From Thuidium tamariscinum (lineage: Eukaryota; Streptophyta; Bryopsida; Hypnales; Thuidiaceae), in the NCBI GenBank assembly GCA_947034885.2, contig OX344750.2:11526053-11590052 (forward strand): a stretch of 64,000 nt of DNA. Reading direction: 5' to 3'. Position numbers and translations under genes: made by a program. Below, piece by piece: positions 6,456 through 38,500 of the stretch. Position 1 is the stretch's first letter. Each line of letters starts with the position of its first letter. Under the pieces are notes generated by a model. It had not been told where the DNA came from. It saw only the letters and a program-made list of their open reading frames with translations, and did not search any database.

Positions 6456-6460
6456 ACATA

Positions 6461-11950: not shown

Positions 11951-12030
11951 TTAAGCATAATTAAGCATAATTAAGCATGATTAAGCATAATTAAGCATGA
12001 TTAAGCATAATTAAGCATGATTAAGCATGA
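11951..12030. repeat. 10-bp tandem repeat overlapping a stop codon
   Basis: Eight exact-length units of TTAAGCATRA (R is A or G), in phase from 11951 to 12030. On the minus strand the last unit supplies the final codons His-Ala and the TAA stop (12021-12023) of the amino acid permease. The remaining units form the start of its 3' untranslated region, so the array appears to have grown out from the stop-codon segment. Confidence 0.95.
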
Positions 12031-15025: not shown

Positions 15026-15600
15026 GGCGATCAACTCCGAAAACGATTGATTCGATGACAGTGAAAATTGTAATCAAAGGAATCCAATAGGTCGAATGTC
15101 TATGATCTTCGATACCCGAAACGTTTCCTCTAAGGCACCAGCTTCTTCCAGAGCCGACCTTCGAATCCGAATACTTCAAAACAGAGAACTGACTTTGTTC
15201 GTTCTCAGGACTTTCAAAACTATCGATCGGCCCATAACAAACTTTCCCGATCAGATACGGCTCTGGAAGTAATGTTCAATCTTTGAGCTGCACACTTGAG
15301 GTAATCAACAGGCATTACGACTACAAAAATTACCTCAAGAACTCCGAATTTTCCTGTTGCAAAGCTGTAAAAATGGGAATTTTCGGAGATTGCTAGCTAA
15401 TCCAAAAACAACGTCGCCTTAACGAGAGTCTCATATATTGTGACCTACCCGAACTCATGATTCGTTCGAACAAACCTTGACTGCATACTTTACTGCGCGG
15501 CTCAAATTGGGCGGTACTAACAGACAGTACTACCTGCACACTCCGCCACACAGGACCCGTGACCTGCACGGATCTTGTCACTGGTGCCCACCCTAAAAAA
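15026..15600 (-). other. Probable leader/promoter of the permease gene
   Basis: A GC-richer stretch directly upstream of the permease start codon on the minus strand, ending about where composition returns to AT-rich. Open frames here lack protein-like features. The promoter probably lies within it, but no core element was assigned. Confidence 0.35.
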
Positions 15601-17175
15601 AATTCTGATCATTTCAAACCATTTCTGAAGATAAATCTCACGATTCTCACATCTAGATTCACTGTCTATCTGAACATGAGAGCTGAAGGTCAATTTGGGG
15701 GTATATGAATAATCAGCACAATGAAAATTTTATCTTTCATTCAAACGGCATCTTGAAATTACATGAGAATTCATAGTTTATTCATCTGCCATCGGAGAAT
15801 GTGAAATCTCTCAACAGACACTAAGATTCAACAGAAACGAATCGAAAAGCTGATTGCAGTTTAAATATGCATAAAAGGAACCATACTCCTGAGATGCTTG
15901 TTGAGAACTGAATCTTTGAGACAGTCATCAAGTTGACTCGCTAGGTATGTCATTAAAACATAGGTACCCTTTCAAGGCTGCACATACATCACATTACTAA
16001 GGTGTAGTACATTACTAAGGAAACTACATTTGAAATCAACCCCTTTCTAAAATTGGGACCTACATATTCTTCTCTAGAATGTACTCCCATTATTCATGAG
16101 AGTCTAGGTCAATTTTATAAACACTTATTTTCACTACTTTGAATATTCATAGTTAGCTTTATTCATACTATGTCCAAAAATTGCATTCTAAGAGAATCTA
16201 AAATCTGCTTTTGACTACCAATAGGACCCTACAAAAAGTTTTCCAATATCATAATAGGAATCATGCAAAATTATTTATTTGGTCAATTTTACGTATAGTT
16301 ACCTTAATGGTGAAAGATATGTGCAATGTTGAAGGAAAACACTATCACGATCAACGACTCTTTGAGCAATTTCTCAATTGTGTGCATGTAGTTACAACTT
16401 AAATTAGCACTTGATGAACACCAAGTCCTATCATCCAGATATTATTTATACCCTATCATCCAGATATTATCACTGCAAGAGACTCATCCGTACAAAATTC
16501 TCAATTAAGTCTAGCAATCTGAAAAACAATATTAGAATTAATTGTAAAGTGTGTGCAATGGGGGACCAAGAGCCAAAGTTTATGAAAAACATAAGACGAA
16601 ACTCCTTGCAATACCAAAATTGGGGTTCAAAGGAGTTTGGTGCTAGATTTCTTTTCTACTAATCTCAATTATACCACCCTTTGACACTCCTATTTCAAAT
16701 TGGGGTTTCCTAAGTTACAATTAATTCTATTATCTCCAGTTCTCCATCATTCCAATCATACTTGGAGGAATTGCCGATCAAACATGGAATTGTCATTCAT
16801 CTTGGCCCTCTCGACAACTCCCTTAAAACTCTATTGTCATGTTCATCATGATAGAGAACAGAGAAATGGACTTTGAATCTAGTTGGTCTCAGACACCATC
16901 ACCTGCAGATCAGTGATCCCAGAACTAGTTTATAGAATTTAGTGTAATATGCTACCTAGTTTAGGGGATTTAGTGCAATTTGCTACCTTCAAAATAAATA
17001 AGCATCAACTTTGGCTATCTTGAGAAAAAGTGGCATTTCCAAAATTAGACAAAAAAAGGATTTTGCAAGTTGTAAAAGATAATGGAGGGGTACTAATACC
17101 CATAACTAACTACAGAGATGCTAATTCCAATATAAAGTAAGTAATAAATTGGCTATCAAATTATATTGGTTGTAA
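15601..17175. other. AT-rich spacer, nothing recognised
   Basis: Low-GC sequence between the permease upstream region and the left end of the large element. Short open frames show no recognisable protein. Only small local repeats, such as two CATTACTAAGG copies near 15990-16020, were seen. Confidence 0.4.
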
Positions 17176-17176
17176 G

Positions 17177-17196
17177 GGTGATTGCAAGAAACACTT
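17177..17196 (+). repeat. Left terminal inverted repeat of the large element
   Basis: GGTGATTGCAAGAAACACTT, identical to the complement of 35559-35578. An extra G at 17176 separates it from the TGTAA duplication. Sequence inside the repeat diverges at once between the two ends. Confidence 0.9.
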
Positions 17197-18023
17197 GTCC
17201 TATTTTTTGTCCCCTTGACCTCTCACGACTGGATTTTGGCTCATAACTTTTGCGTCGCTTCTTGGTTTGCTCTGAAATTTGGAAGGAAGGTGTACAATAA
17301 AGTTTGTGACATACAGAATTTTTTTCAGAATTTTAAAAATTAATTTGCTATTTTTTAAGTGCCCCCGATTGGCTGTCTACCTTGGCCATTTTGGGGGTTT
17401 TCAGTCCTATTTTGGAACCAAAAAAGCGAATTATGACCTGAAAATTGGATATGTTGGACATGGTCTAACATTACACGGACTGGCGTTGAGTTTTTTGAAG
17501 AATGACCCCATGTGAAGTGTGCACATAGGGTCAAAGGGGTCACTGTTTGAGCTCACAATACGAAGAGGGAAATACTTTTTTTTAAGAAATTCTTGTTCCT
17601 ATGTGAGCACAATGAAGTTTAGGAAAATGGATTTTTTTCTTTTAATTTTTTTTTTTTTTTTGGAATTACTAAAAATGATCACATGAAACTGCCCTTTTTC
17701 AGCTATTTTCGACTGTCCCTGCCCTCCGCAATCCTCTTCTACGCACATTAGTATTCAGAAATACTCTGTATTACTCAATAGTACTCTTCAAAAATTGATT
17801 TGTCAGGACCTTGTCAGGATTGCCAATTACTTCTCGCCTACAGCGGCAGTTTTAGTTAATGGTAGTTGAGCAGCTCCTGTTTCCATCGGAAACTCTGCGC
17901 CGCCATTGTCAATAGCTGCAACGTCCCGCAAGTTTGGAACTCCGGACGTGCGGACATGCGACGTCCCAGATTCCTGTAGGGCTGCCGACGCGGTTTAGTC
18001 GGCATGCACCGCATGGCGATGGG

Positions 18024-21000
18024 ATGGATCGACCTTGGCCAAGCACGTGGCGTGCTGAAGAAGTTGCTAGACAAGAAGAGCGGCGAAGACAGTGGAGAGA
18101 GAAGCAACGGTGATATCGTGAGCGACAAAGGGAGCAACGACAAAGGGAGGTCGATCTGCAGAGGCAAGCCCATGAGGAAGATCAGATCGCGCTATCGGCT
18201 GCGACACTTAAGCGAAGGGCCGCGGAGTTCTCCAGGGATCTCATTTGGCACTTGCAGAGATTAGGCGATGAGGAAATCAGGCTGCAGTGCTGGACATGGT
18301 TTTCAAGAACCAGACCGTCAGGATGCTCATGCCCGATTATTATCCTTGTCCGGAGGATGCTCGAGCGCAACGTGACATACTCCAGAACATTAGACTTGAC
18401 TTGCAGGCTATGAAGGTTCCTCATTGCAACGGCATGCTGGCAAGAAAACGGGCCATTTTGGAAGCTGTAGTTTCCGATGTCGAGACCGATTCGAGACGAT
18501 TCCCGAGTCTTCTTGGAACTCGAAGGCAGAACTTCATTTTAGCAGTGCAGAGAATTGAAGATGCTCGGACGGAAACCACATCGCGATTCACAGTACCAAG
18601 TAGAAAGAAGCGAGAAGGAGGCATTTCCGAGGAAGTGCGCCAGCTTGTGGCGTTGTGGTGGACCGAAGAAACTCGGGTCTGTCCAAATCGCAAGCAAGTT
18701 CGGAAAAAACGACTTGGGCGCCGCTTGTACGACCGGCATGCTGCCCACCTTCTTCTCGAAAGTCAGGCAAGCTTTCTTCACCTTCTTCTTATGCATGCAA
18801 TGGATTCACGTGACCTTCATCTTCTCTTTCTTCCACATGTTACAACAGCCACTTCTTTCGTGTTTAGTGCAACGTAGATGGTAACCATCATTCATTGCGT
18901 GTTCTTCTGTCCCGATGTTGCCACTGAATTCCTGTACTGTTTCCTACCTCATCCTCCGTATTGTTGTCAATGGCAATTGGATGTTGCTGTCATTGATAGA
19001 AAGATATCTTTCGCATAGCGTAGCAGTGAATTGATGAGAAACTACATTTCTCATGAGGTAGTCCTCAACATTTGCGCTAATTGTTGTTTTTGACGTCCTC
19101 CATTCAACTCAAATATTGATCCTTCCTTCATAGACTTCAGTACCTTCAGTGCCCTATTGCGCGTAGTGAATGTCACTACGCTATTTTCCACCCCTGTAAC
19201 ATACTGTCATTGACTACTCTATCACTCTTGTAAGGACAGTGGAGAATCGTGAAATTGATTTGAGCAAACGACAGTAGAAAATTACTAATTCTTCATGAAG
19301 CCTTTGAACCTATTGCACTGTGGAGCGGATGTTGTCTTGCGTTCTCATGTATTTGCTACCTTAGTAGCACATACTCAATCCGCATATGCATGGAGGACCA
19401 TGTATATGGAGTTCAAGGTATGTCCAAGCAGAGTACTACTACATTGATGTTGGACGTCCTATTCCGTAATAACGCTGTATTCATTACCAATTAGTAAAAC
19501 CACAGCATACAACCTCTCCTGGCTGCGTGAACCATTCATCGACAATGTCCCTATGATGCTCAAAGAAGACTATGTATGATTGGTGACAGCAACGTCACTA
19601 CCATAGACACCTACGCGAGTGCTTCCCAATCTTGGTTGTATCGCGAAGGACTTGCGGAGTATGTCCCATTGTATAATCCCACCGGGAATTCTGCTAGGAA
19701 GTCCTATGTCATGCACTGACTTCCATGTTGCTAACGGATTCATTACACTTCTCTGTCTAGTAAGACAACAAATGACTTCGTGAGGGTACTCCCCATACCC
19801 ATGTTGCTCATAGCAGTGCTTATTGACTCTGATTCCTTATAGTAAATAATGCAGGTTTGCCATTGCACATGTATAGGACCGTTGACCTTAGTGCTTGTAG
19901 GAGTCGTATAGTACTAGGGAACCATTATAAATACTAGTATGCATCTTCTTCTGTCACCGTTGTAGCGTCCTGGATGCAAATTGTCCTACATATTCGCCTA
20001 TACGCTTGCTGCATGATGTAGTCCTTGCGTAGAGTACTACATGCAGTCCTCAGTACTTGCTTGCAGCACTATAGGTCCATATAGCACTTTGTACAAGTAC
20101 TACATCTGACTGCCCGTCCTTCTTTGCAGGTGGACTTGTACAGGCGCTTCATTGAAGCGCATCCTCAGTCTCCGATTATGCTGCGGTCCTTCATCAAATT
20201 GCGGCCTTTCTTTGTCATTAAGTGCAAAGAGAGAAATGTCTGCTGCTGTAGGTACCACATCCAGGTGCTTTTCCTACTTGAGGCTTTGAATGCTTTTCGG
20301 GCCCCTCGGCATGGGGCACACACCTTATTCCACTGCACTTGCACATGCAGCGTCTGCGGCTCCAACATTGAAGGCATCTGCCATGTTGGAGTCAACCGCT
20401 TCTCAGGTGTCACGGCAATGTGGATGTCTATCTTGTGCGAGAAAGCAGAAGATGCAGAATTCCACAATTTCAGGTGACATGTACAGGCCACCGTGCTTGT
20501 TCAGAGTTTATATGAGTTCAAATTGCATTTCCTGAACACCACTTCCTTGTCCGCTATTTCGGTATGTTTCTTACGGTCGTTGACTTCTTCCTTGCCTTTT
20601 GTAGCTGCTTGTCAGGAACTTGCCAGACATGTGGTATTCACAAGTTTCCCCTCTGCCCACAAGAAAGAGTGGATGGACCTGGACGTACAATCAAGTGGAA
20701 GAAATTCCAGTATGAAATAGACCAAGCATCAGACTCCAACAATCCCCGCAAGCGCATCACTGAGGTTACCGTGACTACTTCATTTTCTGCGTTTATGGAT
20801 TTCCTGAAGCCAACTTTGCAACGCTTTGTGTATCACAACTTCTGTGCCCATTGGCAAAACGACCAAGCAAAGTTAGCTAAAGAGAGCTTGCCTAGCAATG
20901 CCATACTTACCCATATAGATTTTGCAGAAAATTACACCTTCCAAGTGCAAAACGAAATCCAATCCATGTATTACCATTCAACTCAGGTAACAATTATGGT

Positions 21001-22681
21001 GCAAGTTGTCTACCGAGTGCATGTGCCTGATGACGAATTTGATGGAGAACTTGAGCTCCTCCGTGAAACTCACTATTGGATATCTGATGACAAAGCTCAT
21101 GATACACTTTTTGTACAACATTGTCTTCTGCGGCATTGGCAGTGGTTACAGTCACATGGTTGTACACCGGACACCCACATTGTCTTCAGTGACGGTTGCT
21201 CTGTACAGTTTAAAGGTGCACGCAGTCTCTACTTCGTGTCTAGGTATGTCATTTCCTCCCCATTGTACTTAAAGCTTCCCTTTTGCTGACCACTTCTTTG
21301 TGCTAATGAAGACAACTACAAACTATGCACTACTGCTTAGTACAACATTGTGAATGCCTTGTCCTATTTTCCGTATCATAGGACCTCTATTTTTGTTGTA
21401 TAGTACTGGAAGACTCCTGTATCCATACACTATCCGTCTACTAATAATCACTCAAACATTCTAACGTGCCCCTTCACACTCTTGTAGGTACCCTTCTCTA
21501 ACAGGAGGTTGCAAAATGCTATGGAATTTCTTCGGGTCAAGGCATGGCAAGGGTGAGTGGGATGGTGCAGGGGCAGTGGTCAAGAGGGCCTTGCGATCAG
21601 AGCAACTCATGAATCCTAACCGACCACTACAAAATGCACGTGACTGTGTAACGTTCCTTGATGCCACAATGGCAGGTCCTGTACCAGTCCGCAATGGACG
21701 CATTTGGTAAGGCTGTAGTATATTGACTTCTTTCTTGTACTTTAGTTTTCTTCATTTGTACTCTAGGACATGAACGGCTGCATGTGCAGCAAAGCTTCAT
21801 ACTCATCCTCTTCACAAGGCCTTCAAGCCCTCTTGTTATGTCCAATTCAACAATGCAGCCTACTTTGCTTTTCACAGTACTCTTTAGGACTATGTAATGC
21901 CTAAATTTGGAGGAAGATGATTGAGTGAAGACAGTGAGTATTGATCTTATTTGTGTTGTCTGCTATGAATGTGTGCTGCAGATCGTTTCGTTACTTCCAT
22001 TTGGTTAATGTAAACAATGTGGACCGGAGTTGTTCCCATGCATGTCGAAAGATCCCTGGATCTTCCAAGTTGCATTCCGTGTTTGCACCTGATGCTGGGG
22101 ATCCAACAAAACTTTTGGTGAGAGCACTTTCCTGCTTCTGTGGACCTTGCTTGGAGGGTGATCACAGGAACTGCGACCAGAAATCTTACGTGCCGACCTA
22201 GAAGGTTCTCAAAATAGAGCCCCTCAATGTCCAGTATGCACAAGCAGTATTAGAAGCGGAAAATGAAGAAGATGAGGAGAACTGGGAGTACGAATATAAT
22301 GAAGACCGCATGGGGGATTTGGTTCAGGCTGGAGATAACTTTGCCATACCTGCCGAAGCAGAGAATGCTGAAGGTGTTCCGTACTACATTCTTCAGTGTC
22401 AAACTCCAAAGCAGTTGGTAGAAGAAGACTTTAAGTGCCCTTGGGGTCCAGAATTTAAACGGGGCGACTTTATGATCATCGCCACTTACTATCAGAAGTG
22501 GGGCAGGGCGACCTCTCACAATTATGTGTACTTGAAGGACTCAAGGCCTGCACATATAGCCGCTGACTTAGTACTCGCTTGTAAATTCCAAATGCTTCCA
22601 AGAGCACATAGAGTGAAAGGTGGGGATCCTGTTTACACCCTTCCACAGGAGAGTGTTGACGTAATTTCATGTGCGTTGTAA
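18024..22681 (+). pseudogene. Transposase-like gene of the large element, decaying
   Basis: A spliced gene with exons at about 18024-18766, 20130-20473, 20605-21243, 21488-21706 and 21982-22681; phases agree at every joint. The first intron uses a GC donor (CAG/GCAAGC). The protein is roughly 880 residues: an Arg/Gln/Glu-rich coiled region; a basic block near RKRAILEAVVSD; SFIKLRPFFVIKC followed by a Cys/His-rich stretch (CCCRYH, CTCTCSVC, GTCQTCG) likely to bind zinc; then HIDFAENY, YWISDDKAHD, FSDGCSVQFKGARS and HGKGEWDGAGAVVKRA; and a C-terminal SCFCGPC segment. The Asp of DFAENY, the Asp of FSDG and the Glu or Asp of GEWDG are spaced 90 and 39 or 41 residues apart, as in RNase H-fold transposases. 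Lesions: TGA at 18111-18113, a frameshift near 18275-18290, a TGA formed across the 21706/21982 joint, and TAG at 22199-22201 where a Trp seems expected. From memory it resembles unnamed animal proteins; the transposase role is inferred. Confidence 0.75.
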
Positions 22682-24100
22682 GAATACCAGGACTGCCAAT
22701 GAGTGCATGGTAGTGGCAGCATTACTTCATATGCACAATGCTAGAAGTATTGGTTCCCCTGAGGAAGCCTTTCACCCGTGGTAGAAAGCCGTTCTATTTT
22801 CCTGTTTTGTTGACCTTCTCTACAACAGCTTCCTAATCTGCCCCATGAATGTTTTGCAGACATGACCCTTGTATGACCTTTGGATTTTCAATGTGCAAAA
22901 ATTGGGGCTCCATTTTTTATTTATATTTTCATATCTTCTTAAGGGTTTTATATGCAAACTTTGTGTTCATTTCTGAATCCATAAATAGGTCTAGGAACTT
23001 TAAGGGCAATGGTAGAGCTAATAAATCCATGTCATGCATAGGGCCATATACTATTATACAAATTTCAGGGATTGAGGAAGATGACAAACATCTGAAATAT
23101 TTCATGAATGGTATACATATTATATATATGAAGATATTATACTTTGGGATATTTCATCTATATTTATGTATATATGTTGATGAGCTTTAAGAAAAAGATG
23201 CAGCATCCTACAAACCAAAAAATACTGTGAAGAACAGTAAACCTAGCATAATTTCTTAAAATGAGTAAAAATTGTATACCTTTGGCACTTTCAACAATTT
23301 ACTATAGACTCTAAAATGAATACTAATTTTAGAGTTATGAACTTTGAAATTCTCTTCAACATAAGTGAAATCCTAATTTATCATAGATGTTGACACAATG
23401 CACTTTACAATGTATAACTATTCAAAACCTACATTTCTCTTTGGTGTTTGAAATTTATATGCTTACAACATTTCACTTTCATAGTTTGAACTACATGATA
23501 TAGAAACGGCATATGAAATATGCCCATCAATTTGCCATATTTCTATAAATATGTCCATTCCATCCACTTGGCAGCAAGCTTGTCTACTTATATATACCTC
23601 ACAATTTGTATGTCTTTACTACATATCAATGTAACTACCCTTGACTAGGAATGCAGGAATTATTTCCAATAAAAAATCCAATGAGATTGCATCAATGTAC
23701 TAGAAGTGATAGCAATTAGTAGGATGTTGGCTACTTTATTTTGAGAGTTTTTGAATGATATAGAGAAGTGTATGCAATACTTTAAAATTAAAATTAGCAG
23801 ATTTTTGGATGTGGACCGGTTCCAAGAAAAAAATTCAATAGTGAGACCGTACTCCTTCTGGAGTATTTCTAGGGAAATTACCATTTTGCAGGCCTTCTTA
23901 ACAACAAGTAGGCAATTAAGTATACCATTATTAGGACTTTTTCACTTGTAATACTTATGACTAATATTTTGGCTTATAATACTAACAAGCCTCTGGGAAA
24001 TACTTGTACCCTTTTTGGATTTTCGTATTTTGAAGAAGGTACATCCTTATCCCTAAGAGAGGAGGGGCTTAGCTAGCTTCAATTCCTCACCAAGATAGTT
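22682..24100. other. AT-rich interior of the large element
   Basis: No recognisable gene after the transposase-like stop codon. The composition drops to AT-rich near 22900. A dispersed repeat at about 23960-24110 (containing CTGGGAAATACTTGTACCC and GGGGCTTAGC) has a relative at 58797-59160 downstream of the decayed hAT gene. Confidence 0.5.
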
Positions 24101-24104
24101 TAAG

Positions 24105-25200
24105 AAAAAAAAATAGGAAGTGAAATTAGTCAATGCAAAAGAGACTTGCAAGAAATAGTAGGAAAAAAAATAAGGACAAGAAGGGGAATTTAAATTATCG
24201 ATAGCAAACATACGGTTTGGAAAATGAACGATAAGAGAGAGACTAGCAATTATAATTAATAAATGCGAAAAACACATTCCCCGGAAAAAAATAGGAAAAA
24301 AAAATGGGAATTATTATTTCTAAAAATCAAACATACCTTATAAAATAATGGAACCAAAAAAAATAGGATTGAAATTAATAAATGCCAAAGATACTTCGAA
24401 GAAAAAAATAGGAAAAAAAATGGGGAATGTAATTTATGAATGCCAAAATTTTAACTGAAAAGAAAAGAATAGGAAAAACAATGTTCAATATAATTAATAA
24501 TTGTGAAAGATACCTTCCAAAAGAAATAGGAAAAAAAATGGGGAATTTAATTTTCAAAACTGAAACATACCTTAAAAAAAAATAGGACAAGAAGGAGAAT
24601 ATAAATTATTGATGCCAAACATACGGTCTGGAAAATGAACGATGTGAAAGAGCCTAGCAAATATAATGAATAAATGCCAAATACACATTCCCCGGAAAAA
24701 AATAGGAAAAAAAAAGGGAATTATTATTTCCAAAAATCAAACATACCTTATAAAATTATGGAACCAAAAAAAAAAAGGATTGAAATTAATAAATGCCAAA
24801 GATACTTCGAAGAAAAAAATAGGAAAAAAAATGGGGAATGTAATTTATGAATGCCAAAATTTTAACTGAAAAGAAAAGAATAGGAAAAACAATGTTCAAT
24901 ATAATTAATAATTGTGAAAGATACCTTCCAAAAGAAATAGGAAAAAAAATGGGGAATTTAATTTTCAAAACTGAAACATACCTTAAAAAAGAATAGGACA
25001 AGAAGGAGAATATAAATTATTGATGCCAAACATACGGTCTGGAAAATGAATGATGTGAAAGAGCCTACCAAATTTAATTAATAAATGCCAAAAACACATT
25101 CCCCAGAAAAAAATAGGAAAAAAAAATGGGAATTATTATTTCCAAAAATCAAACATACCTTATAAAATAATGGAACCAAAAAGAGGAACATAATTTCTAG
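24105..25200. repeat. 411-bp tandem repeat, about 2.5 copies
   Basis: The landmark CATACGGT begins at 24209, 24620 and 25031, so the period is exactly 411 bp twice. Each unit is itself built from smaller A-rich modules of about 60-70 bp with the shared core AAAAAATAGGAAAAAAA followed by GGGAAT. Identical small open frames on the minus strand at 24375 and 24786 come from this repetition and are not genes. Confidence 0.9.
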
Positions 25201-27539
25201 ATGCCAAAGATACTTCAAAACAAAACAATGTGAAAGAACTTGGTTAATATTATAAACTAATACCAAAGGACCCTTAAAGATAAACAATTGGCATGTGAAA
25301 CACATTAGAAGTACATAGAAATTGTGAATATATAGCAACAAAATTCTACAAAATTTCTACAAAGAACGTAGACTATGGACTAGATTGTCATGGTACCTTT
25401 GCTTTTAAGAAATTGCTTCAATTTCATGAACAGAATAGTATATTATATCAAACCTAATGTAGCACCATTTGTTTCATACACCTATGAACAATGAGAAGTG
25501 GATTGGAAAAATCATGCATTGTAATTTGGTTTTCAAGACTAGAATAAAGCTTCAATATAAACCAATGCCATGTTAGTAAAGAATTCTATGGCAACCACTA
25601 ATAGTTGCAACAATTGGTACAACTTCAAAGGTGACCATCTAAAAAGAAAATAGTGTCATAGATAGTAAACTCAACAAAATTCAAAAAATATTGTTTTAGT
25701 GAGAACCATGTGGGAAAAAGTTAGGTTGGATTTCTTACAAGGAAGCTAGTGTTTTTATGGAACTGAAAATGGAGACAACCAACATAATAGGGGTATACAC
25801 AATAGTAATTTCAGGTGCTTCTACCATACCTTAGTTTCGATTTCAAGATTCAAAATTCAACAACTACAAACTGTAGAACCTAAGATAATGGCATTCTCAA
25901 TTCCATTGAGCACATCATAGAGAGATGAACTTTAAGAACTGCATCACACTCCTTGCCATTCAAAATATGAAACATTACCAATGCAAAACAACAATGAATG
26001 AACTGAAGACATGTAAAGTCATTAGAATATGAGTATGACTTTAAATGGGAAGAAGGTCACTTGCAAGTTCAGAATAAAAAAGGCTAAGACATAATTAACA
26101 CTCATATGATTACAACAGAAGATAGAAAATTAGTGACACTTTGCTTTACAGGGTGATGTCATAGTGTATCCAATAACGCAACACTTGCCTTCAGAATTCT
26201 GTTTCATGCTGCGATCGACACATTATGCATATTCGAATCTGAGAGAAGCTTTAAAGAGCTCCATTTCTAACTCAAAGATCGTTGGAGCTAAATTAGCATT
26301 TTCAAAATGAAGTTGGTGGTGCACAAACCATGATATGATCTTCCATCTTGGACACTACCTGCCATATATATACAACCAATGTGCAAACAAATTAGAACTC
26401 GACCGTGTTTCGAAAACAAGCCTACCCTAGAACAATTATTAATAAAAATCACAAACTCAGCATCGGAAATTGGCTATGACTATTTCCTTTCCCACGTGTA
26501 CAAGAGGCAGACCTTATCTTCCTCATTCACTAGAAATTGCAGAAAACATTCCACGAATTTATACACAGTGGCCCCCTAAACAGATTGAAGAAAAAGTAAG
26601 GCATTGGTGGTGCCAAAAAGCTGCAGGGTTCATCAACACAAAGCCTTCGGTAGAAACTCATACTAAAACTGGAAGAGATAAAATTACAAGACTTGGGGAA
26701 CGGAAAAGAGAATGGTCAGCAGGTCTATGGTTTACCTGATGAGTGTCAATTTCATTCAGTAAAGATGACACTTGGAAGCTCAGAGAAGACCTTGTGAACC
26801 TACTGCAATAGTTACTTGACCCCTGCACAGTCCATTGGACTTGTTCACCTAAACCCCTAATTGCTCTATGAATCATCACGATTTTCATGTACAAAAATCT
26901 ATTGACATGAAAATCAAGAATCGTCAGGAGTATGCCATTTTCACACATATTAGGCACAATGACATTAGTCAATGACATTACTCAATGCAAGGACAAAGGC
27001 TACAACGCCAAGAACCTTGAAATAATCCTTGCAGATGAAAGCATCCCAAAATTCAATGACAATGCAAAAGTAACCCTGATCACGAATGGAGAAAATGCTC
27101 GCACCTTCGATCAGAAAAAAAATTCTCAACAACAATATGGCTGCAAGAGCAATGTGGTTGAACATAATGAAAGTGAGGAAGTTGCTGGCAATATCATTTG
27201 AAAGAAGAACCCTCACCCGCGCCAGCCAAGGACAAAACACGATTACATGTCTCTCAATGCAGAATACTCAGTAATACTTCAGAGGAAGATAATACCATTA
27301 CATCAGTACTTGGAAGCACTCTGTGTGCATTGTGGTTGTGTTTACAAGTGTATGCGGGAAGTGATAAGGTACTTCAAGACCTGTGTCCACTACAATAACA
27401 ATTCAGCCCACTCTGAGGACTTCATTGGTAACAGTAGCTTCCTTTGTAGGACATACTACGCATTACCTCTGTACTAGCTGGAGCTCCTACAAATTCTTGC
27501 TGGATTGTAGCTGTACAAAACTCCAGGTGTGCTTCACAA
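25201..27539. other. Interior of the large element, no gene recognised
   Basis: AT-rich to about 26100, then moderate GC to the post-SET exon. Open frames near 26379-26739 and 26658-26978 have no recognisable motif. The part nearest 27539 may be the 3' untranslated region of the SET-domain gene. Confidence 0.4.
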
Positions 27540-29026
27540 TTACTTACTCCTGCACGAATCACTACCGCACACGCATAGGAAGGGTTCCACTTCACCTTCT
27601 CGACGTGTAAATGACACACCGTAATCCCACGTTATCTCTTCACCAGCTGCTATATCTCTCTTTGCAAAAAAAGCTACCTGCATAAAGTAGTAGTAGAAGA
27701 ATGTTAGAATGCAGAAACAAATCTACACAATAGCTAAGGTAGAAGTGATCATGAGCTGTACAAAGGGATTTGGAATGCTCATGTGGTAGACCGTAGGTAA
27801 GGTACAACCCACCCAAACGGGCATGTCCATCACATTAGCATCACCGCACCTACAGGAAGAGCACACGTCAGTGCTCCAAACGCTTGTTCGTATTGACCAA
27901 CAAAGTTCATGTCGTCATCAATGTCATACCTGTGATTTACCCATCGTGCAAGGTTGGTGCACTACGACGAATCAATGCAGAGCAACTCCTTGTCGCTTTT
28001 GGAGGCCTCTGACTACCAATGCGCATCTAGTAGGAGTGAATACTTCTTACCGCCCCCACGACGAAACAACTCAGCATTGGTCACCACCTCACCCGCATAC
28101 TCAAAGAGGAAGGTACCTTGTCGGAGCAGCTCTAAAATTCGAATGCCCCAACCCTTCGAAGCACTTACAAAGTACACCTGCGCAGGAATTACATGAAGTC
28201 CATGGTTGCTAACAATATTTATCTGGAAATAGAACAATAATTAGCATCACTCAAAAGGTCAAATTCAAAGAAGTACCTCAAACCTTTTTGTTACACCAGC
28301 TTGGATGACTCTATTCCCGCACTGCCGACTGCACTGACAACTACTAGTACACTCTTGTATGTATGAGCGCTGGACGTGGCCGGGACATGCTCCACTCCAA
28401 AATCCTTTGCACAAAAATTTTCCACGGCAGTGAACCAAATGCGCATTGCCTCCATCCGTCAACTGCACAAATTGTACAGCCAGAATGGTGGAGGATTTAG
28501 GTTACCTAAGAGCAAAAGCATGACTACGGTTCAAAATAGTTCATGAAATAAATGAAGGCACATTTAGAAAGCATACTATATACAATATCCTATACACAAG
28601 AAATAGTATGCCTACGGAGTCATTGGAGTTCTCATTAACACACCTCTTTAATAAACCGTGATTGCAACAATCCATCAGGGGTATAAGCACAGCCTCCGGA
28701 GACAGAAAAGCATTGGCACTTCTTCCTGTCAGCACTACAAGTACTTCCACATGTACAACCAAGTTCTGTGGACAGACATGCCCTCAGCACATTTCGTGAC
28801 AAAGAATGGTGTAATATAGGACTTCGGATGTAAGTGAATGACATGTCTAGGCATGGAGCTGCCTGTCCACCTCTAAGGCTGGAGCATGGAATAGGAACAT
28901 TCTCATGACCTCTGGAGCAATCCAAAATAACATAGTCCTGTAGCAGAATTTCCAGACAAAAAAACACACACTTGAAAGTTGTCCCATGTGCCCAATGTCA
29001 TTGAGGCTATCCATGAGAACCATCTG
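27540..29026 (-). pseudogene. SUVR-type SET-domain histone methyltransferase, broken
   Basis: Minus-strand exons at about 28972-29026, 28644-28937, 28277-28462, 27930-28177, 27783-27849 and 27540-27677 encode, in order, a lead-in ending ENVPIPC; a Cys-rich pre-SET (TCGSTCSADRKKCQCFSV; CQCSRQCGNRVIQAG); SET core KGWGIRILELLRQGTFLFEY, ARWVNHRCGDANVMDMP and GEEITWDYG; and post-SET CVCGSDSCR. These are the SAM-binding and catalytic motifs of H3K9-type methyltransferases, closest to plant SUVR1/2/4. Breaks: TAG at 28013-28015 and at 27962-27964, both inside conserved SET sequence, and a donor that should follow the Tyr-His codons at 27783 but reads ATGAGC instead of GTGAGC. No alternative splice in phase removes both stops. 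The exons lie wholly inside the large element, downstream of and in the same direction as the RING-like gene, and could be its 3' half. Confidence 0.8.
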
Positions 29027-29407
29027 TGAATGAGTACACAGATTATGCAAAGGAAAAACAATGTAGAATACACCACACACACCACTTCTCAATAATTACA
29101 CTAAGTGGTCCTCAAAACAGTTAAAAAAGAGTGCCTGCACTCAGAAGTAATAACTTCTTACAAAACTTGGTCGCCTGGTTGACCAGCAATATGTGAAGGT
29201 AAAAACTGCAGACAGTTTACATACTTATGGTAGAAGGCGGGGCTACTTCTTCATATACAACACATGGGAGGCCCCTGAAGCAAGCGGCATCTTGAACGGC
29301 TACCCGTCCACAGAGGGGGGCCGTGCGCCAAATCTCTTCGGGGGTTCTCCAACGCAAATCTCTCAGTTCGAATGCACTGCATATAAAATTCCTCACTTCT
29401 TCATTAC

Positions 29408-32400
29408 CTTTCCTTTCTTTGATGTTGGTGCAACTTCAGCTGAGATTGCAGCTGGAATTGCTGAAGACTTCTGTATCTGCTTAAGAGATCGCCGGGACTT
29501 CATAGGTATGCGCGTTGGAGATTCTGACGTCGTTGGTGACCGACCCTTTGAGCTTTTACCTGTAACACCTGAGTTGTCCTTTGACCGTCCCAAAGACCCG
29601 CCAACGTTAGCATCCCCAGTACTCTTGTCCTCTTGTGCACTGTCTATACTTCGTCCTGTAGTCTTCTTCTCTGAGATGAAAGAAAGCACTTTGAGGCACC
29701 GTTAGTAAGCAAGACATTGTCAATAATACACTTTGGAGGAAGAACTTTCATGTCATTGCTGAATTCAGTGTTTGTGACGTACCCTTGCTTGCCGTCCTAC
29801 TCTTGTACACCAGAGGATTGACTACTTCAAGAGTAGGATTGACTGCTTGAGGAAGGGGAAGACCATCGGGGTTGTCTTCAGTGACTTTCTTCTTCTTTGC
29901 TTCCTCCTCTTCAAAGTATTGCATGTATGGGTCAAGCTTAGATGGGACAGCCTGAACATGCACAATGGGGGCAAGAGTGGCAGTTATGGAGGGCGCTGAG
30001 GATGTTGGCTCCACCGTCTCATCCACCTAATTCAGCCCATACAATGGAGGTCAGAACGCCAAGAAAAAAATGCGCCAAGTGAATGCATGAGGTGAAAAAA
30101 AAAAGGAAATTTTTAGCCAAGAGAATAGGCAGACCTGGTTCTCATTTGTCAAAGGCAGTGTCTTTTCGACGGCCTGATCTTCTTTCTCGAGGATGTCGTC
30201 GAGATCCCCTCTAGCAAATGGATCAACAAAGTTTTTGGGGGCGTTGGCGGTCTCCACTGTTGGTGTCAAATTCAAATTATTGTTGGAGGGGTCTATACAT
30301 TCTTTTAGTGTGTCAAGGCTGGGTGGTACCTGTGCAGTGCTGGGAGATTGAAATTGAGTAGATCTTGGTGTCCTTAGAGGAGACTTGGCGGATAGCTCTG
30401 AAGTCCCCGTTTGAGTAGGCCGTTGCCCCAGAGGCAATGGCGCACCATCCGCGCATTCAGTCATGCACTTTGAGTAAGTGCTACCAGATGCGGAAGCCGT
30501 GGGAGCGCCCTGGCCAATTGGAACAGAACCTGGTCCTACTGCATGAAGACAGAACATTACACATATAAGTATTATTGACCAAATTGTTGCTTGAATGAGT
30601 CTATACATAAGGCTAGTGAGGCAGTCTTTCTATCACTTACGAGTGTAGTTAAGAGTGCTCCGTGCTGGAGCAGTGATGTAGGACTCCAAGTTTGGTGCTC
30701 CTCCAACACCTGTGATCGCAAGACAGTCCCGAGTGGCCCCACTACGGTCTTCATTGTACGACGCCGAGAAGCCATAAGCCTTCAGCCACATGGGATGCAC
30801 GCGCCCGCAATCTGCTGCAACACAGTCTGAGGTATCTTTAAACCATGCTGCAGCACACCAAGGATGATATAAGTGGTGGCAACTGCAGATAATGGCATGC
30901 CAGAAGGGGAATCCTTCTAAGCACACAATACAAAATGAAGGCACAGGAAAAATCCCAAAGTCAGGTGTGCCTTCAATCTCTGAAGAGCTTAAACGTAGTG
31001 GACTGGGGTGCATGATGCACCCAAGATCTCCAGACTGTAGAGAGCTCTGATCTGTCTGCAGGAGTGAGAGGTAGCGTTTTGAAGCCTGCAAGCGCTCTGC
31101 CAAGAGCTTCTGTTCACGAGCCAAAGCCTTCGTCTTTGATTGTAGACTCTGTAGGTCGTTGATGTTGTTGCGGAGCATGTCATGCATAGGGCCATTGCCC
31201 AAAACCTCCACAGGGAAGTCCTTGCTGTCATTAGCATCGGGAAGCTCATACCGCTCTCCATATTTGGCGAATTGTTTGATGAGCTGTTCCACCATGCCGT
31301 AGCAGAAAGAGGACTCTTTCTGCGCTTCTTCAAGTTTTAGGGAGACGTCGTCCACATTCGATTGAAGACCATCGACCTTCAACTCCAATTGGCTTACAAT
31401 GCTGTCCATGTTGGCACTTCTGCAGTACAGTGAGGTACAATTAGTGACAGTTATTTCTCCCAAAGTGCTTTGAAATCGATGAGCCCTCTCAACCTAACTC
31501 CACGGCAAGAGGAAAAAAAATGAAAGCACAACGTAGTAGTAAGAAGTGACAATTACCTTGAAGCCAGCATATCAAAGTCAAGGGAGGGCAGCATGGATGC
31601 AAACCCTTTGTGCTTGCTATCCTCAGCTGGCAATGAAATGGGTGGAGGAAGTTTGAATGGCACCAGGGACTTCGACTTCCATTTGCTTCCATCTGTGTCC
31701 TTCAAGAAGTCTTCGAGGTCACGCTCTACGTCGATGTCTTTTTTGCCGGCAGCGAGAAGGCGTTTCAGCCAGGTCCTCACTCGTGATCTGTAGTTCACCT
31801 GTTGGAGTTGATTCGTGTCTGCGGCAAATTTAGCCCAATCGACTTCCTCTTTCCGCACACGGTCAAAGACCCATCCAATCGCCAACTCCTTCGCAACGTG
31901 ATTGGGAGCGTATTCTTTTTGATAGCATATACAATAGAGGGCCTCTATTCCACGGCAGTCAGCAACGGAGAGCTTGTCTCCTAAACTATAACCATTCCGC
32001 CCTTTCTCCGATCCAAATACTGCCTCCACTACCTGTATGGGGATGTGTTTCCCTATTTTCAGTTTGTGGGGATTCTTGCCCACGCTGCTGAGGTTAAACT
32101 GAGTGCGAAAGTCTTCTTTGGTCAGACGCCGTGGAGGCAACTTCAGAGCGGTCTTCAGTTCTGCCAACGCCCTCTTGCACTCTTGCTTGCTATACTCCTT
32201 GTTTCCCTTGCTTTTGAGTTTCTGAAAGGAAATAGAGGATTAAAGGCTGTTAGATGTAGTTACAACAAGCGCATATAGGCAATTCAATGACCACGGAAGT
32301 GCACGGACAGAACTTTGGCATCTTCACATGAGACTTTCTAATCTTCAAAGAGCACTGACAGTCCTCTAGAAGAGCTCAAAATACCTTGACGGAATACTCT

Positions 32401-33268
32401 GCGGATTATTCAATGAACATGTAGGACAATAAGAGTGGTCCAAGTCACTTGTTGAATCCTACAAGTACTTGATGAAGCATACGCGCTTGCGCAATAAGTG
32501 TCCTATGGGAGTACTACAATACAAGCGAAGTACCATGTGTAATTCAAAGGACATGACTATAGTATTGAGAATAATTGCGATTACACTGACCTTAGTGCCC
32601 GAAGCCTTCTCTGGTGAAGAGAGACTGTCATGTTCGTCTTCTGTATGGTACGATGAGCCGCCGGAGTTAGTCTGCCTCGGCCTCTTCCCCTTTGACTGTT
32701 GCGTTTGTTCGGAAAGAGGAGAGTCAGTGGCAGCTTTGGATGCTTTCACGGTTGGTTGCCGCTTATCCTTGGCAACAGGAAGTGTGCGAGCCTCAGGTAC
32801 ACCCTTTTTCTTGTTCCGTGGCGGCAGTGCTACCTCCTTGTCACGGACAGCGATGTCTTCATCACCGTCACTGCCCGAGTGTTCAATGTCTTCTTCGTCC
32901 GAAGCGTCAGAAATGTCTTCCCCTCCGCGACTTTGAACTTTCCACAATACATCTTCTTGATCGTCACTGTGGGGTGTGGTGGCAGCTTTCGATTGTCTCG
33001 ACCTCCCAGATGCAGTAGCAACAACAGCTGCTGAGGCTTGCCCTTTCTTCATCCTTGCCTGCATAACCTTTGGGCCAGAGTGGGTGCCCTTCGATTGTGA
33101 GGTCCTCTTGGTAGTCTTCGGGAGGTCTTCTTCCTCATCTTCTAAGAGTTGGACTTGCCGTACTTCTTTCTGGCTGTCCTTCTCCGTTCGTGCTTGCTGC
33201 AACTGGGCTTCGTGACGTGTCCCCCCAAAAGAAACGAGCTTCCTCTTCACAAATCTTGAAGAGTCCAT
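29408..33268 (-). CDS. RING-like, coiled-coil protein of the large element
   Basis: Six minus-strand exons stay open and in phase: 32591-33268, 31557-32223, 30641-31419, 30135-30538, 29783-30026 and 29408-29670. The ATG at 33266-33268 follows an acceptor (TTTTGCAG), so a leader intron is likely. The first exon is Lys/Ser/Glu-rich and disordered. The second holds an unrecognised domain of about 200 residues (near KIGKHIPIQVVEAVF and WLKRLL). The third has a coiled coil (residues near MDSIVSQLELKVDGLQ) and a Cys/His cluster, FCIVCLEGFPFWHAIICSCH then HLYHPWC, CVAADCG and HPMWLKAYGF, resembling a RING or PHD variant. The rest is Ser/Thr/Pro-rich. It ends at a strong donor (AAAG/GTAATG at 29407), so the true C-terminus lies downstream, possibly the SET exons. 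No function is known to me; a ubiquitin-ligase or chromatin role would be a guess. Confidence 0.65.
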
Positions 33269-35500
33269 GTTAGTATGTGCCGATCCTGCAAAAGAACACA
33301 GTGTCACACACAATGCTTTAGAAGAAAGAGCTCGAATGAAGAGTAAGCTAGGTTTTGTTGTCAACGTCAACGGAAACTTCTATGAAAGACTGTGAAGTAG
33401 AGGCCCACTGTACACTAGAATACAAAAAGTACTAAGGTTTGTTGCCAAAAAAGTCCTACCAGTCAAGCATAGGATAGAAGGTAGTACGAACAGGTTGTTA
33501 TATGGTTACATAGGCATAGTGGAAGTGCCCCAAAAGCATTCACTAAGACTATCATATAGTCCTATGAGTACTTAACCAGCGCCTAGAGCTTACGAAGGAC
33601 TGTTGACACTGTCTTAGAATAGCTTAGACAGAACAGCGGGGGACTACACATTATTACTACGAGTACTAAGAGCGCGACGTCCGTTGAAGCCGTACTTCTT
33701 CCAATCCCTTAAAAGGCCCAGAGGACGTGTAGTAATACTAACAAAAGCAAAGGACAAACGAATTCCAAACCACAGAAGACAATGTGTACTGCAGCCTAGA
33801 TTCGTATCCCCAAAGGGATAAGTCAAGCATATAGCAAAATATACACCTTTCCACACTACATTACAGAACACTCCGTAACGCTTACAGAAAAACAACAAAT
33901 ACTATATTGTATGAGCCAAGCAAACCTCTGTCAACAGCGTCACATACTATAGAGGTCAAGGAAGTCCTATGGAGAGCACATGTGCATGTGTAGAGGATAG
34001 TGTCTGAAGAAATAGGACAATGTGCATGGTCAGGTACCTTAATCCTACGCGCTTCATTGGACTGCAGATGCAACCCCAAGTAATGACAGGAGCCAGTAGA
34101 AGCACTAATGGTTATACATAGATAACGCACAGTGTACCTTTGAAGCATGACTACGAAAACCAAGAGTACAAACTTCAGAAGAGAAACAAGTCCTGTGAAT
34201 AAGAACAGTGTCGTATTAAGAGTCAATCATGGGAAAAGAATAAAAGAAAGGAAGAGCATCAGAAATGAATGGTGACTTAGGAGCCGTGGTTGGTGAAAAC
34301 GTGCCTTGCACAATAGTTTATTATAAGAAGCCTTAGAACATAGGAACAAACATTTAGGGCCTTGTCAACAGAATTCACATCAGTTGAAGAGAAAACCGAA
34401 GTGGAGGCTGATCTATCTATACATTGACGTCCTACTGTGCAACAATGAATCTTATAGAAGCTGAATGGCTTAGTGTTGTGCTATTTCTGTGCCTCGCTGC
34501 AAAACACAGCAACAGCAACATCATATGTGGAGAAGGCTGACCGTTTTGAGGTTTACATGTGTACATATTGTTTGAGAAATCATTTTTCACACTATGATGG
34601 CATAGGGAGCTACGGATATGGAATGCAGGACGTTGTGTTTGGACAGCAAATACATTGGTCGCCCTGAACCACTACTGTGAAGAGCAGAAAGACCTAGACC
34701 CCTAAACTTTAATCGAAGGAAGTACCCTAAACCAATGAAGTAATTACTTTACAATAAAATTGCATCACGATTTATCGTCTGTGAACACTCTCAGTCCCTC
34801 TTCGATAGAAATTGACGAATTGCATATTCAAAATTATCAAAGATGAAAAACATGAATAATCACCGAATGCATGTACATCAACCTGTGGATGCTGTCGTAG
34901 AAGTCGTGGGTGCGAAGGTGCCCGATCGGCCTAAATTCTAAAGCCGCAGTATTGCCGCAGTGAAGAGCGCTCCAGCCCTTGATTCCCTTAGCGCTCCAAC
35001 TACAACTTCCACCCCTCCAAGAATGCGTGCAACGAGTCCTCCTTTGCAAAACAAGCCGCGTTGCCTCCGTCCTACCAACGCCAATGCGGAAAGTGAGTCG
35101 CCTCTCCTACAACGATACTCCCTCTCATTCGGACGTGCCCTCTTGCATCGCTCCTTCTTCGGCACTATGCCTAATTCACCAACAGTACAAGGCCTCGCGT
35201 TGATCTCCCAAAACCCTAAACCACAACCACACCAATTACGCAAACGCAATGCCACAACCCACAGACAGATTGAATGGCATGCACAGACTTCCGGAGGTCA
35301 GAGAGCAGCAGCTGCACGACGACAGTGCAGTCAGAAGCGGTCAGTACATGTACTACACAGCGCTGCTGTCGTCATTTATTACTGACAGCTTCCTCATGAC
35401 AGCGCTCCGTCAAGTCATGACGTCTATCGCGTTAAATGCAACGGTCAGGCGAAATCAACGGTCCAGATCTACGATTCACTGCGGCCGGTGAGTACTAAAA
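33269..35500. other. Leader/promoter region of the minus-strand gene, with GC-rich end
   Basis: Follows the first coding exon of the RING-like gene upstream on the minus strand. An acceptor lies at 33287, so at least one leader exon should be upstream. The best candidate is the GC-rich stretch at about 34930-35490, just inside the right end of the element. Open frames on both strands there lack recognisable motifs. Confidence 0.4.
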
Positions 35501-35558
35501 AGACTGCCAGTACTGCCAGTACTGTGGCCAAAAACTGCGTTTTTGAGCCAAAATCGTT

Positions 35559-35578
35559 AAGTGTTTCTTGCAATCACC
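35559..35578 (-). repeat. Right terminal inverted repeat of the large element
   Basis: Complement of the left 20-bp end. The adjacent inner sequence TTTTGAGCCAAAATCGTT is shared, with small changes, by the short element ending at 7359. TGTAA follows at 35579-35583. Confidence 0.9.
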
Positions 35579-35583
35579 TGTAA

Positions 35584-38500
35584 TAATCATATCTTAGCTA
35601 AAATTTAATTTTTTCAAGGATTTTTTCCTATAGAGATTTAGCTCCTAAAATTTTTTAGTAGCAATGGAGCGAAATTTAGCCAGTTTTGTGAACGCTACTG
35701 CAAATGTGATTCACTACCAGTGGGGCTTCAATAATCTATGTATTCATGCCCGTCTCAAGTATATGAGGATAACAGTGTTGCTCTATACTTGGTACACTAA
35801 TGCATGACTGTGTGTATACAATCATAGACCTACTTTTATATATGAAGATATCAAAAATATTTGTTTTCATATTTGATATCTATTGAAAATGCTTATGCAA
35901 AAAAATCTAGAATAAGCCTACATATCAGATTTCTCATTCTGAAATTCAATAGATTTGAGAAATCCATGAGTGGAAATTCCACATGATTCACTTCAATTTC
36001 AACAACTTTGCAAATTGTTTGACATCTTTGTTGCATAGAATGTGAGGTCAAAAATATTATGGTGGTTTTGTAGCAAACTTTCCACACATGTTGACACAAT
36101 GTGGAGAAGACTTTGCATCCAAGAAAAGAAATCCTGCAATTGTAATAGTTTTGCAATTTGTTTTGTCCAAGTTTGGTCATGAATCTTTAGTTGTTTTATG
36201 CACCCACGAAGAAAGAAGATGGCATCATTTGCCTTGTACAAGTTCTTGGCACAAAAAGCAACAATACTTTACCGGATCTACGAGTTCATAAAAAGGTGGA
36301 TCTGGTACACAAACAAATCCTTCCCAAGAAGTAAAACATGTCCCATCAAATTCTCTTTTGCTCCGAAAGGCTGCAAAACAAAAAACCAGAAAAAATTCAT
36401 TTGTATACTTAAAATTTTGCTATTGATGCATTAGACCAAAATAGAAGGTGATGAAAATGTATTACACATTCTAATGTATTATAACACATCCACATAATCA
36501 ATTTGGTCCTCTCTACTTTACAAAGGTCAATCTTTCTTTTTTATTATGATTGATTTTTTGAAGGTTGACAAATGGTATGGCAAATTTCATTAGAATGGCA
36601 GTATTCCATGTGCCATTTTCAAACCACTCATTTTGAACTGTAAAAGTGACATCTACGATAGGTGTAGATTTCAAACATCTAGTATTAGTATGGATTGAAA
36701 AAATCTAGGATTGGTACACATTTCAAAATGCATGTCTAAATCATCTAGGAGAGGTAAAGATTTCAGATATCTAGGAATGGTATAGATTTCTAAAATCTAT
36801 AGTTGATTTACATTTTAAAGTGCATGGTCTAAACTATAAAAATGTCAAAGTAAAAAAAAATTTCCATTTTAATGAAATTCATTGTATCATCACGTGTAGG
36901 TCACTTTCCTAAATAACTCAAGAAAATTTGGAAAATGTTGAAGTTTTAAAAATTGTTTGTGAGAAAAAATAGAAAAAGGAACACAATTATCCAAGAATAG
37001 GAAGAATCAATCCAAAATTAGGTGTGTCCTTATAGAATGCTAAAAACAAAAAATTCCAATCAGCTTGTCGAATTGTCAAACTAAGAAAAATAAATGATTT
37101 TGGCCTAATTTGCCGAAACAAACCTACATGTACGGTAGTTGCAATATGATTTACTGCCATCATTGTGTTATCATTATTGCTACACTTTTTAAAAATATTC
37201 TCTTTTAAATATTTGTAAAATGAATTCAAATTGACAAGTGACAAGAGTTTTGTTAAGATTGGCATGAAAACAACTAAGGGAAAAAAGTTGAAAAAATTTG
37301 AAAAATTAAGGTATATTGAAGTAGAGTGAAAAACAATTAAAGATCAAAAAATACAAAGTGAAATGAATATCAAATCAACTATACTTTACTCAAGCAAATC
37401 AATAATACATTTTGATAAATATCATTAGGGGGGAGATTAGAGATTTTGAGGGCATTAGAAGACCATGAGTTTCCTTGAGTTCCCGGATTGTGAAAACACA
37501 CTACATCAATAATTTGATGTAGTTAAAAGATTGCTACATTTAAAAATAGTTTTTAAAAAAAATTAAAATTATTTTTTAATTATCATTGTTTTTTCAAAAT
37601 TGAATTTAAGAAAAAATTAGGTTTCTTAATATTTTTTTGAAATTTTTGAAAAAAATTCAAAATTCAACCATTATGGATTGATTTATTGTTTCTAGATAGT
37701 ACAAGGAACAAACAAGGGAACGGCCTTAATAGAGCCTTCCCTTGCCTTCGAATCTCTTTAATGATTTAAATAAGAATAGATGATGTAGACAAATCAATGT
37801 GTTGACTTAAGCTTCTAATTTTGAATCTCTTCTTTAAAATGTTACTTTGAAAATTAGGTCTTAATTCACTTCCAAATGATCATGCCAGTGTATTATGGTA
37901 ACCATAAGGTTGATTTAAGCTAGAGCACAAAGAAAGAGCAACTCCAAGGTCTTATAATAAAAGCTTCCTCTTGAATAAAATAGAATTCTAGTGACTTGAA
38001 ATTTAGCCCACTACTAGCAATGAGTCCACCTTTAGTAAATTCAACATTGCCAATCTCTTCCATTCTTCATCAACATTTCTTTTTGTTACTTTACTCAATT
38101 TTCTAATGCCATTCTATCTTCAATAATGTACCTACATTCTACCCTTTCAACTTAAAAAATCCACAAACATTGATACTTTTTATTATAGAATAAGAGAGGT
38201 ATTAAAGATGGCTCTTGTATTGCCATTTATACTTTGATTTTGATTTTCTACTGCATGAAAGCTTTTGCATTTGGTTTTTGAAAGCATATATTATGGAACT
38301 CAAGTTGTAATGATTGAATTTTATATGGTTGTATATTCTTGTGATTGAATAAAAAAGACATTTGAAATTTATTTTTTGAATGTTTTCAAGGAATATAATG
38401 TTCCTTTTCATCTAATTTAAAAGAACTACTTGCAATTATATATTTGTATTTAAATTATAAATTTCCTTAAAACTAAAATAGGAGACATTTTGTAAAATTA

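Follow-up and report, generated by a model that had tools for sequence, protein, structure and literature searches.

The window analysed here is a stretch of 64,000 nucleotides from the moss Thuidium tamariscinum (contig OX344750.2; C2:11526053-11590052 within the 363 Mb and 19 contigs that were searched), and at positions 17176-35579 it contains a giant DNA transposon of 18.4 kb, as the original prediction had proposed. The element is real because a second copy, 98.2% identical and flanked by its own target site duplication (TSD), two related long copies, thousands of matching ends and empty sites were found in the same genome. Two genes converge within it: a transposase gene on the plus strand and, on the minus strand, what is probably a single gene joining a RING-like module to a SET-domain methyltransferase. 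We read the locus, with a probability of roughly 0.78, as a decayed Sola-type cut-and-paste transposon in which the convergent transposase and RING-SET genes form a pair of long standing in the lineage. Its features are given below with the basis of each in brackets; the four long copies are called A (in the window), B, C and D.

17172..17175, no strand: left TSD copy, GTAA (family-wide 4-bp register, paralogous empty sites)
17176..17196, plus: left terminal inverted repeat (TIR), GGGTGATTGCAAGAAACACTT (end comparison, genome-wide pattern count)
18024..18263, plus: transposase exon T1; premature stop at 18111, frame change between 18263 and 18272 (copy comparison)
18272..18766, plus: transposase exon T2; GC splice donor in all four long copies (copy comparison)
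20130..20473, plus: transposase exon T3, cysteine-rich (copy comparison)
20605..21243, plus: transposase exon T4; first two aspartates, in HIDFAENY and FSDGCSVQFK (copy and locus alignment)
21488..21706, plus: transposase exon T5; third aspartate, in GKGEWDGAG (locus alignment)
21982..22681, plus: transposase exon T6; premature stops at the T5/T6 junction and at 22199 (copy comparison)
24163..25182, no strand: AT-rich tandem repeat of period 411 between the two genes (repeat analysis)
27540..27677, minus: SET exon S5; WDYG motif, post-SET cysteines, stop codon (EHMT2 alignment, joined frame)
27783..27849, minus: SET exon S4; C-G-DAN motif, no GT donor after it in the window (copy comparison, joined frame)
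27930..28222, minus: SET exon S3; SET core, premature stops at 28013-28015 and 27962-27964 (Pfam, EHMT2 alignment, joined frame)
28277..28462, minus: SET exon S2; end of pre-SET, start of SET (Pfam, EHMT2 alignment, joined frame)
28644..28937, minus: SET exon S1; pre-SET (Pfam, EHMT2 alignment, joined frame)
29408..29670, minus: RING-SET exon R6; GT donor in phase with the SET exons (splice-site comparison)
29783..30026, minus: RING-SET exon R5 (copy comparison, joined frame)
30135..30538, minus: RING-SET exon R4 (copy comparison, joined frame)
30641..31419, minus: RING-SET exon R3; zf-RING_2-like, E 0.005, below the Pfam cut-off (Pfam, copy comparison)
31557..32221, minus: RING-SET exon R2; conserved domain of unknown family, ratio of nonsynonymous to synonymous substitution (dN/dS) 0.13-0.16 between families (copy and genome comparison)
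32591..33268, minus: RING-SET exon R1; presumed start codon, charged, low complexity by eye (copy comparison, joined frame)
35559..35579, minus: right TIR, outermost base differs (end comparison, window scan)
35580..35583, no strand: right TSD copy, GTAA (short-copy TSD table, empty sites at base level)

The transposase and the RING-SET gene

Exons T1 to T6 make up about 874 codons on the plus strand, with splice sites that are consistent across the four long copies, the GC donor after T2 included. Three aspartates, spaced by 90 and 41 residues in the window, are kept in A-D and in 3/3 further loci at 39-51% identity, and are presumably the catalytic residues of the enzyme; a glutamate two residues ahead of the third aspartate is not conserved in one locus (L064). 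No relatives of exon T4 were found in viral contigs.

On the minus strand, exons R1 to R6 and S1 to S5 join in one frame of 1336 codons plus a stop codon, interrupted by two premature stops, both in S3. Because the GT donor of R6 and the AG acceptor of S1 are each conserved in 4/4 long copies, and because the joined frame is open but for those two stops, we favour one gene over a second gene ending at the stop after R6. The original prediction had placed two further gene blocks beside a transposase-like gene; the transposase-like gene and the coding blocks are indeed there, and the two blocks are probably one gene. A candidate exon S0 (29220-29435) was dropped from the gene model as conserved DNA with no consistent frame; about 100 bp in 29254-29400 (minus strand), in the putative R6-S1 intron, look strongly conserved in the four copies by eye, without a consistent frame.

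Pfam recognises SET (E 5.4e-17) and Pre-SET (E 1.1e-10) domains in this gene, whose best solved relative is EHMT2/G9a (E 9.6e-32) and whose post-SET cysteines align with those of EHMT2. The SET part appears to comprise the pre-SET, SET and post-SET regions of a plant SUVR-type methyltransferase of histone H3 lysine 9 (H3K9), a label based on the NHR-C-DAN motif, which resembles that of SUVR proteins. The asparagine-histidine motif recurs in 9/9 further SET loci (NHR, once NHK), and DAN and WDYG are found together in all three further SET loci whose aligned piece reaches that far; for two of these (L058 and L059), no transposase is listed within 20 kb. This SUVR-type gene had gone unrecognised in the original prediction.

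Ends, copies and decay

The perfect 20-bp inverted repeat announced for the element is present (17177-17196 versus 35559-35578, 20/20), and the TIRs are in fact 21 bp long, GGGTGATTGCAAGAAACACTT, starting with GGGTGA, the window's outermost right base being changed. Nine TIR-like sites with at most three mismatches lie in the window, against a maximum of 0 after shuffling. Genome-wide, the TIR pattern, searched with one open position and at most one mismatch, occurs 4841 and 4870 times on the two strands (9,711 in all) and its reversed form 0 and 0 times.

The first 225 bases of the element were used as the query for further copies, and 40/40 scored places, out of 1661 candidates, match. The copies analysed are the window's and 38 fetched ones (39 of 40; C2:12146828 was left out). 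Copy B (C1:11502901) is 98.2% identical to A over 18.4 kb, and copies C (on C5, minus strand) and D (C1:37744418) are full-length relatives with 68-81% identity in matching segments. All four long copies have both ends and measure 17.9-19.9 kb, the size of C including a nested 0.7-kb element; the TIRs of B and C are perfect, D has one mismatch and A one, at the outermost base. The remaining 35 copies are short, 727-770 bp with one of 1071 bp. A more diverged element of 14.1 kb (C1:5100220-5114352), whose transposase is 59% identical to the window's, ends in GGGTCATTGCATGAAAGACTTGTACTATTT and its inverse with one difference.

The TSD is 4 bp long. An identical TGTAA does stand on both sides of the window element (17171-17175 and 35579-35583, a single G separating it from the left 20-bp repeat), as originally described; it is not a 5-bp duplication. 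Other copies run GGGTGATT...CACCC, or a close variant, with a 4-bp duplication, and the window's right end has a T where most copies have C (CCC). The base before the left GTAA is also T, and the flank match therefore looks 5 bp long by chance. The window's empty site alone fits 4 or 5 bp, since either removal leaves identical sequence, and it is the family that decides: 4-bp TSDs flank 4/4 long copies (A gtaa, B aaat, C agcc, D ttgt), and among the short copies an exact 4-bp TSD is found in 31/35, the exceptions being L021, L032 (3 bp), L050 and L051, against a mean of 1.5 and a maximum of 7 in 2000 controls with shuffled partners. The further copies for which 5-bp duplications had been expected thus exist and carry 4 bp, none of the 35 showing 5 bp.

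Empty sites, which the original prediction had suggested looking for, were found as paralogous sites of the window insertion and as one nested site. With the flanks of the window element joined, the junction is spanned by matches of 90-93% at 40/40 scored places, out of 476 candidates, and therefore the window insertion sits in another repeat family; the flanks 17026-17175 and 35584-35733 are part of that dispersed repeat. Six of these empty sites were read at base level: five carry TGTAATAAT at the junction (L066 differs there), and all six are without five bases that are present in the window just beyond the junction. The nested case is a 728-bp copy inside copy C, flanked by ATAT, at a place where copy D is uninterrupted.

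The window copy is decayed. Premature stops in the aligned codons of transposase, R part and SET number 2/0/2 in A, 1/2/1 in B, 2/4/1 in C and 5/6/4 in D. In copy A, a further stop falls at the T5/T6 junction and the frame shifts between 18263 and 18272; T1 and T2 of B and D also contain frame changes, and S3 of C is interrupted by about 380 bp. Between A and B there are 306 differences in 18,396 aligned bases, with 8.6 transitions to each transversion, and differences of the C-to-T type affect 95/2583 CHG, 72/2048 CG and 106/11,018 CHH sites, a pattern that looks like deamination of methylated cytosines.

Elsewhere in the window, further elements with related ends lie at 6460-7359, 9003-10493 and 53569-54302, flanked, as judged by eye, by ACAT/ACAT, ATAA/ATAA and AGAT/AGAA, respectively, and a lone related end at 56060. 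Pieces of an amino-acid transporter, probably a host gene, occupy 12021-15073 on the minus strand (Pfam Aa_trans in 3/3 open reading frames, one below cut-off), and an acyl-ACP thioesterase C-terminal domain (Pfam E 6e-6) lies at 1450-1851, also on the minus strand. Both kinds of gene piece, like the decay at CHG sites, indicate a plant host.

Genome-wide distribution of the gene pair

A search with SET yielded 180 matches, 132 of 430 candidates being scored, and the 150 rows listed collapse to 117 loci; many of these are decayed, and they may include host SUVR genes together with transposon copies. With exon T4 as query, 150 transposase loci were scored of 280 candidates, 39-100% identical to the window's. 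A listed SET locus lies within 20 kb of 90/150 of these transposase loci, and in 90/90 cases it is downstream and convergent. In 500 random placements, convergent pairs averaged 0.5 (maximum 3) and pairs in any orientation 2.3 (maximum 11), with C11 taken as 18.0 Mb, the true value being 17.5 Mb. By transposase identity, a listed SET is within 20 kb of 2/2 loci at 98-100%, 10/12 at 76-86%, 53/57 at 54-63% and 25/79 at 39-51%; the two loci of the 76-86% class that lack one have a convergent SET at about 33 kb (on C4, another transposase being nearer) and at 44 kb (on C1). The R module (115 matches, 97 of 388 candidates scored) gave 83 loci, 66 of which have a listed SET within 20 kb, always on the same strand and in 65 cases with R upstream; random placements gave this order 0.26 times on average and at most twice. 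A transposase followed by an R-SET gene that faces it is thus the order typical of the lineage, while a listed SET is missing for most transposases that have diverged further. For 27 of the 117 listed SET loci, no transposase is listed within 20 kb.

Three side observations concern these loci. At C3:12641934-12675096, two SET-transposase pairs with identical scores stand in inverted orientation, their SET loci about 20 kb apart, which looks like an inverted duplication. Several transposase loci of the 39-51% group have open frames of over 600 amino acids and could represent a sister lineage that lacks SET or carries different cargo. Contig C11 (17.5 Mb) harbours many diverged SET loci with open frames.

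Both genes are under purifying selection between families. When A and B are compared with C and D, dN/dS is 0.14-0.15 for the transposase, 0.19-0.23 for SET (at a synonymous divergence of 0.72-0.79) and 0.31-0.34 for the R part, with bootstrap upper limits of at most 0.41 for all three; the SET blocks compared take in about 24 codons beyond the final exon limits, and codons with a stop were dropped. R1 alone gives 0.38-0.42 between families (upper limits up to 0.58). In comparisons within families, these limits run from 0.41 to 0.98 for the three parts and exceed 1 for R1 and R3 alone (4/4 comparisons).

Function, placement and known systems

We propose that a transposase of roughly 870 amino acids with three aspartates (D-D-D) would cut and paste the element, that short copies would borrow the transposase of the long ones, and that the second gene would encode a chromatin protein of about 1336 amino acids, composed of the conserved domain of unknown family, a RING-like finger and a SUVR-type lysine methyltransferase. 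The pair would be of long standing, since numerous diverged families share it in one convergent arrangement and purifying selection acts on both genes between families. Plant genomes silence transposons with SUVH/SUVR H3K9 methyltransferases, and our preference, a tentative one at somewhat below even odds, is for a RING-SET protein that works on the chromatin of the transposon itself: it would set or adjust H3K9 methylation at new copies or target sites, which would limit the harm done by insertions and let the element persist. With the same reserve, the RING-SUVR methyltransferase may be seen as a core gene that selection has kept in many diverged families, a heterochromatin writer of the transposon's own that would control silencing or target chromatin, and SUVR-type genes may in this way have spread through the host until their loci exceed the usual number more than tenfold.

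We favour this self-directed chromatin writing over an anti-silencing role, which we consider somewhat less likely and in which the RING-SET protein would compete with host SUVH/SUVR enzymes, divert them or RING-mark them for destruction, leaving the transposon expressed. The RING-like finger in the conserved module (a weak match) and the purifying selection would fit such a factor; however, the loci read retain the catalytic motifs, for which a protein serving only as a decoy would have no use, and the concentration of the A/B C-to-T differences in CG and CHG is consistent with methylated, silenced copies.

As regards the superfamily, several candidates were rejected. piggyBac and Kolobok have a fixed TTAA target, and the left flanks of the 35 short copies give 28 different 4-mers, TTAA once. 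Transib and hAT5, with 5-bp TSDs, disagree with the family-wide 4 bp and the absence of 5 bp from all 35 short copies, and for the integrase-like Ginger no retroviral-type integrase domain was seen, nor any Pfam match at E up to 1. In the CACTA/Chapaev/Transib group termini are mostly CA..TG, and C(2)C and H(3-4)H lie between the second D and the last E (PMC12730594); here the termini are GGG..CCC, and these motifs were not seen by eye between the second and third D. KDZ elements have an 8-bp duplication (Zisupton, a Dileera; PMC12730594), against 4 bp here.

The family had originally been called unplaced. Sola elements are described as having a DDD transposase, a 4-bp TSD, TIRs of 11-1124 bp and sizes mostly of 2-9 kb, some above 15 kb, and as present in Physcomitrella (PMC10741241), for which Sola1 is listed (PMC9033089). 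Since the 4-bp TSD, the three conserved aspartates and the size (17.9-19.9 kb) match these published features, as does the 21-bp TIR, and the host is likewise a plant (for Sola1 a moss), we place the element as Sola-type by its structural features and not as proven Sola. Unlike what the parts of the Sola descriptions used here mention (PMC10741241, PMC9033089), it carries a SET methyltransferase gene. A new superfamily, with another three-aspartate transposase making a 4-bp TSD, seems improbable, the 4-bp TSD, the DDD transposase and sizes above 15 kb being published Sola features and Sola1 occurring in Physcomitrella (PMC10741241, PMC9033089). What probability it retains comes from a transposase with no recognised domain and from a likeness to Sola by description rather than by protein comparison. 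Far less probable still is that a host SUVR gene was captured a single time and has since travelled as a passenger, without function for the transposon: transposons do capture host genes and the window's SET copy carries stops, but dN/dS is 0.19-0.23 between families at synonymous divergence 0.72-0.79, and 90/90 nearby listed pairs are convergent over transposases 39-100% identical.

Several points weigh against a Sola-type transposon with a long-standing gene pair. All four long copies carry premature stops, and any activity they have is hypothetical. The transposase has no Pfam match at E up to 1, a single-sequence fold of exon T4 reached a mean predicted local distance difference test score (pLDDT) of 32 and was not used, and the placement uses structural features only. 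The flanks of the diverged element on C1, ttta/gtga, are unmatched (0/1 diverged elements with a 4-bp TSD). The single R-SET transcript is predicted from splice sites and frame only, exon S4 of the window having no GT donor; for 52/117 listed SET loci, no R module is listed on the same strand within 20 kb, and the join may not hold at every locus. SET is not universal, since 60/150 transposase loci, 54 of them in the 39-51% group, lack a listed SET within 20 kb. The loci, moreover, are not independent events, some being duplicates.

A transposon lineage in which purifying selection maintains a silencing enzyme, encoded face to face with the transposase, suggests that there are transposons which direct their own heterochromatin, and the arrangement at 90 transposase loci in one genome means that natural replicates exist. 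Our literature search found no SET gene on Sola or plant transposons, although a description in Repbase only may exist. Transposon-borne SET genes are already in print for oomycete elements, namely HarbingerS and MuDR of Phytophthora (PMC12730594), which likewise are DNA transposons encoding a SET-domain lysine methyltransferase; unlike the present element, they belong to other transposase superfamilies and an oomycete host. TET/JBP-carrying KDZ and other fungal transposons (PMC12730594) similarly have an epigenetic enzyme aboard in several families, theirs being a DNA dioxygenase in other superfamilies and ours a histone methyltransferase. Sola2 elements with Fanzor1 in slime moulds (PMC3627910) also combine an extra gene with short TIRs and a 4-bp TSD, and differ in the extra protein. 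With plant SUVR proteins (SUVR1/2/4 and SUVR5 groups; PMC3063831) the methyltransferase shares Pre-SET, SET and post-SET, and unlike them it lies inside transposons, joined to a RING-like module. Finally, the 117 listed SET loci, many decayed and some perhaps host genes, compare with seven Su(var)3-9 SET proteins given for Physcomitrella (PMC3063831), and transposon copies may swell the number of SUVR genes counted in genomes of this kind.

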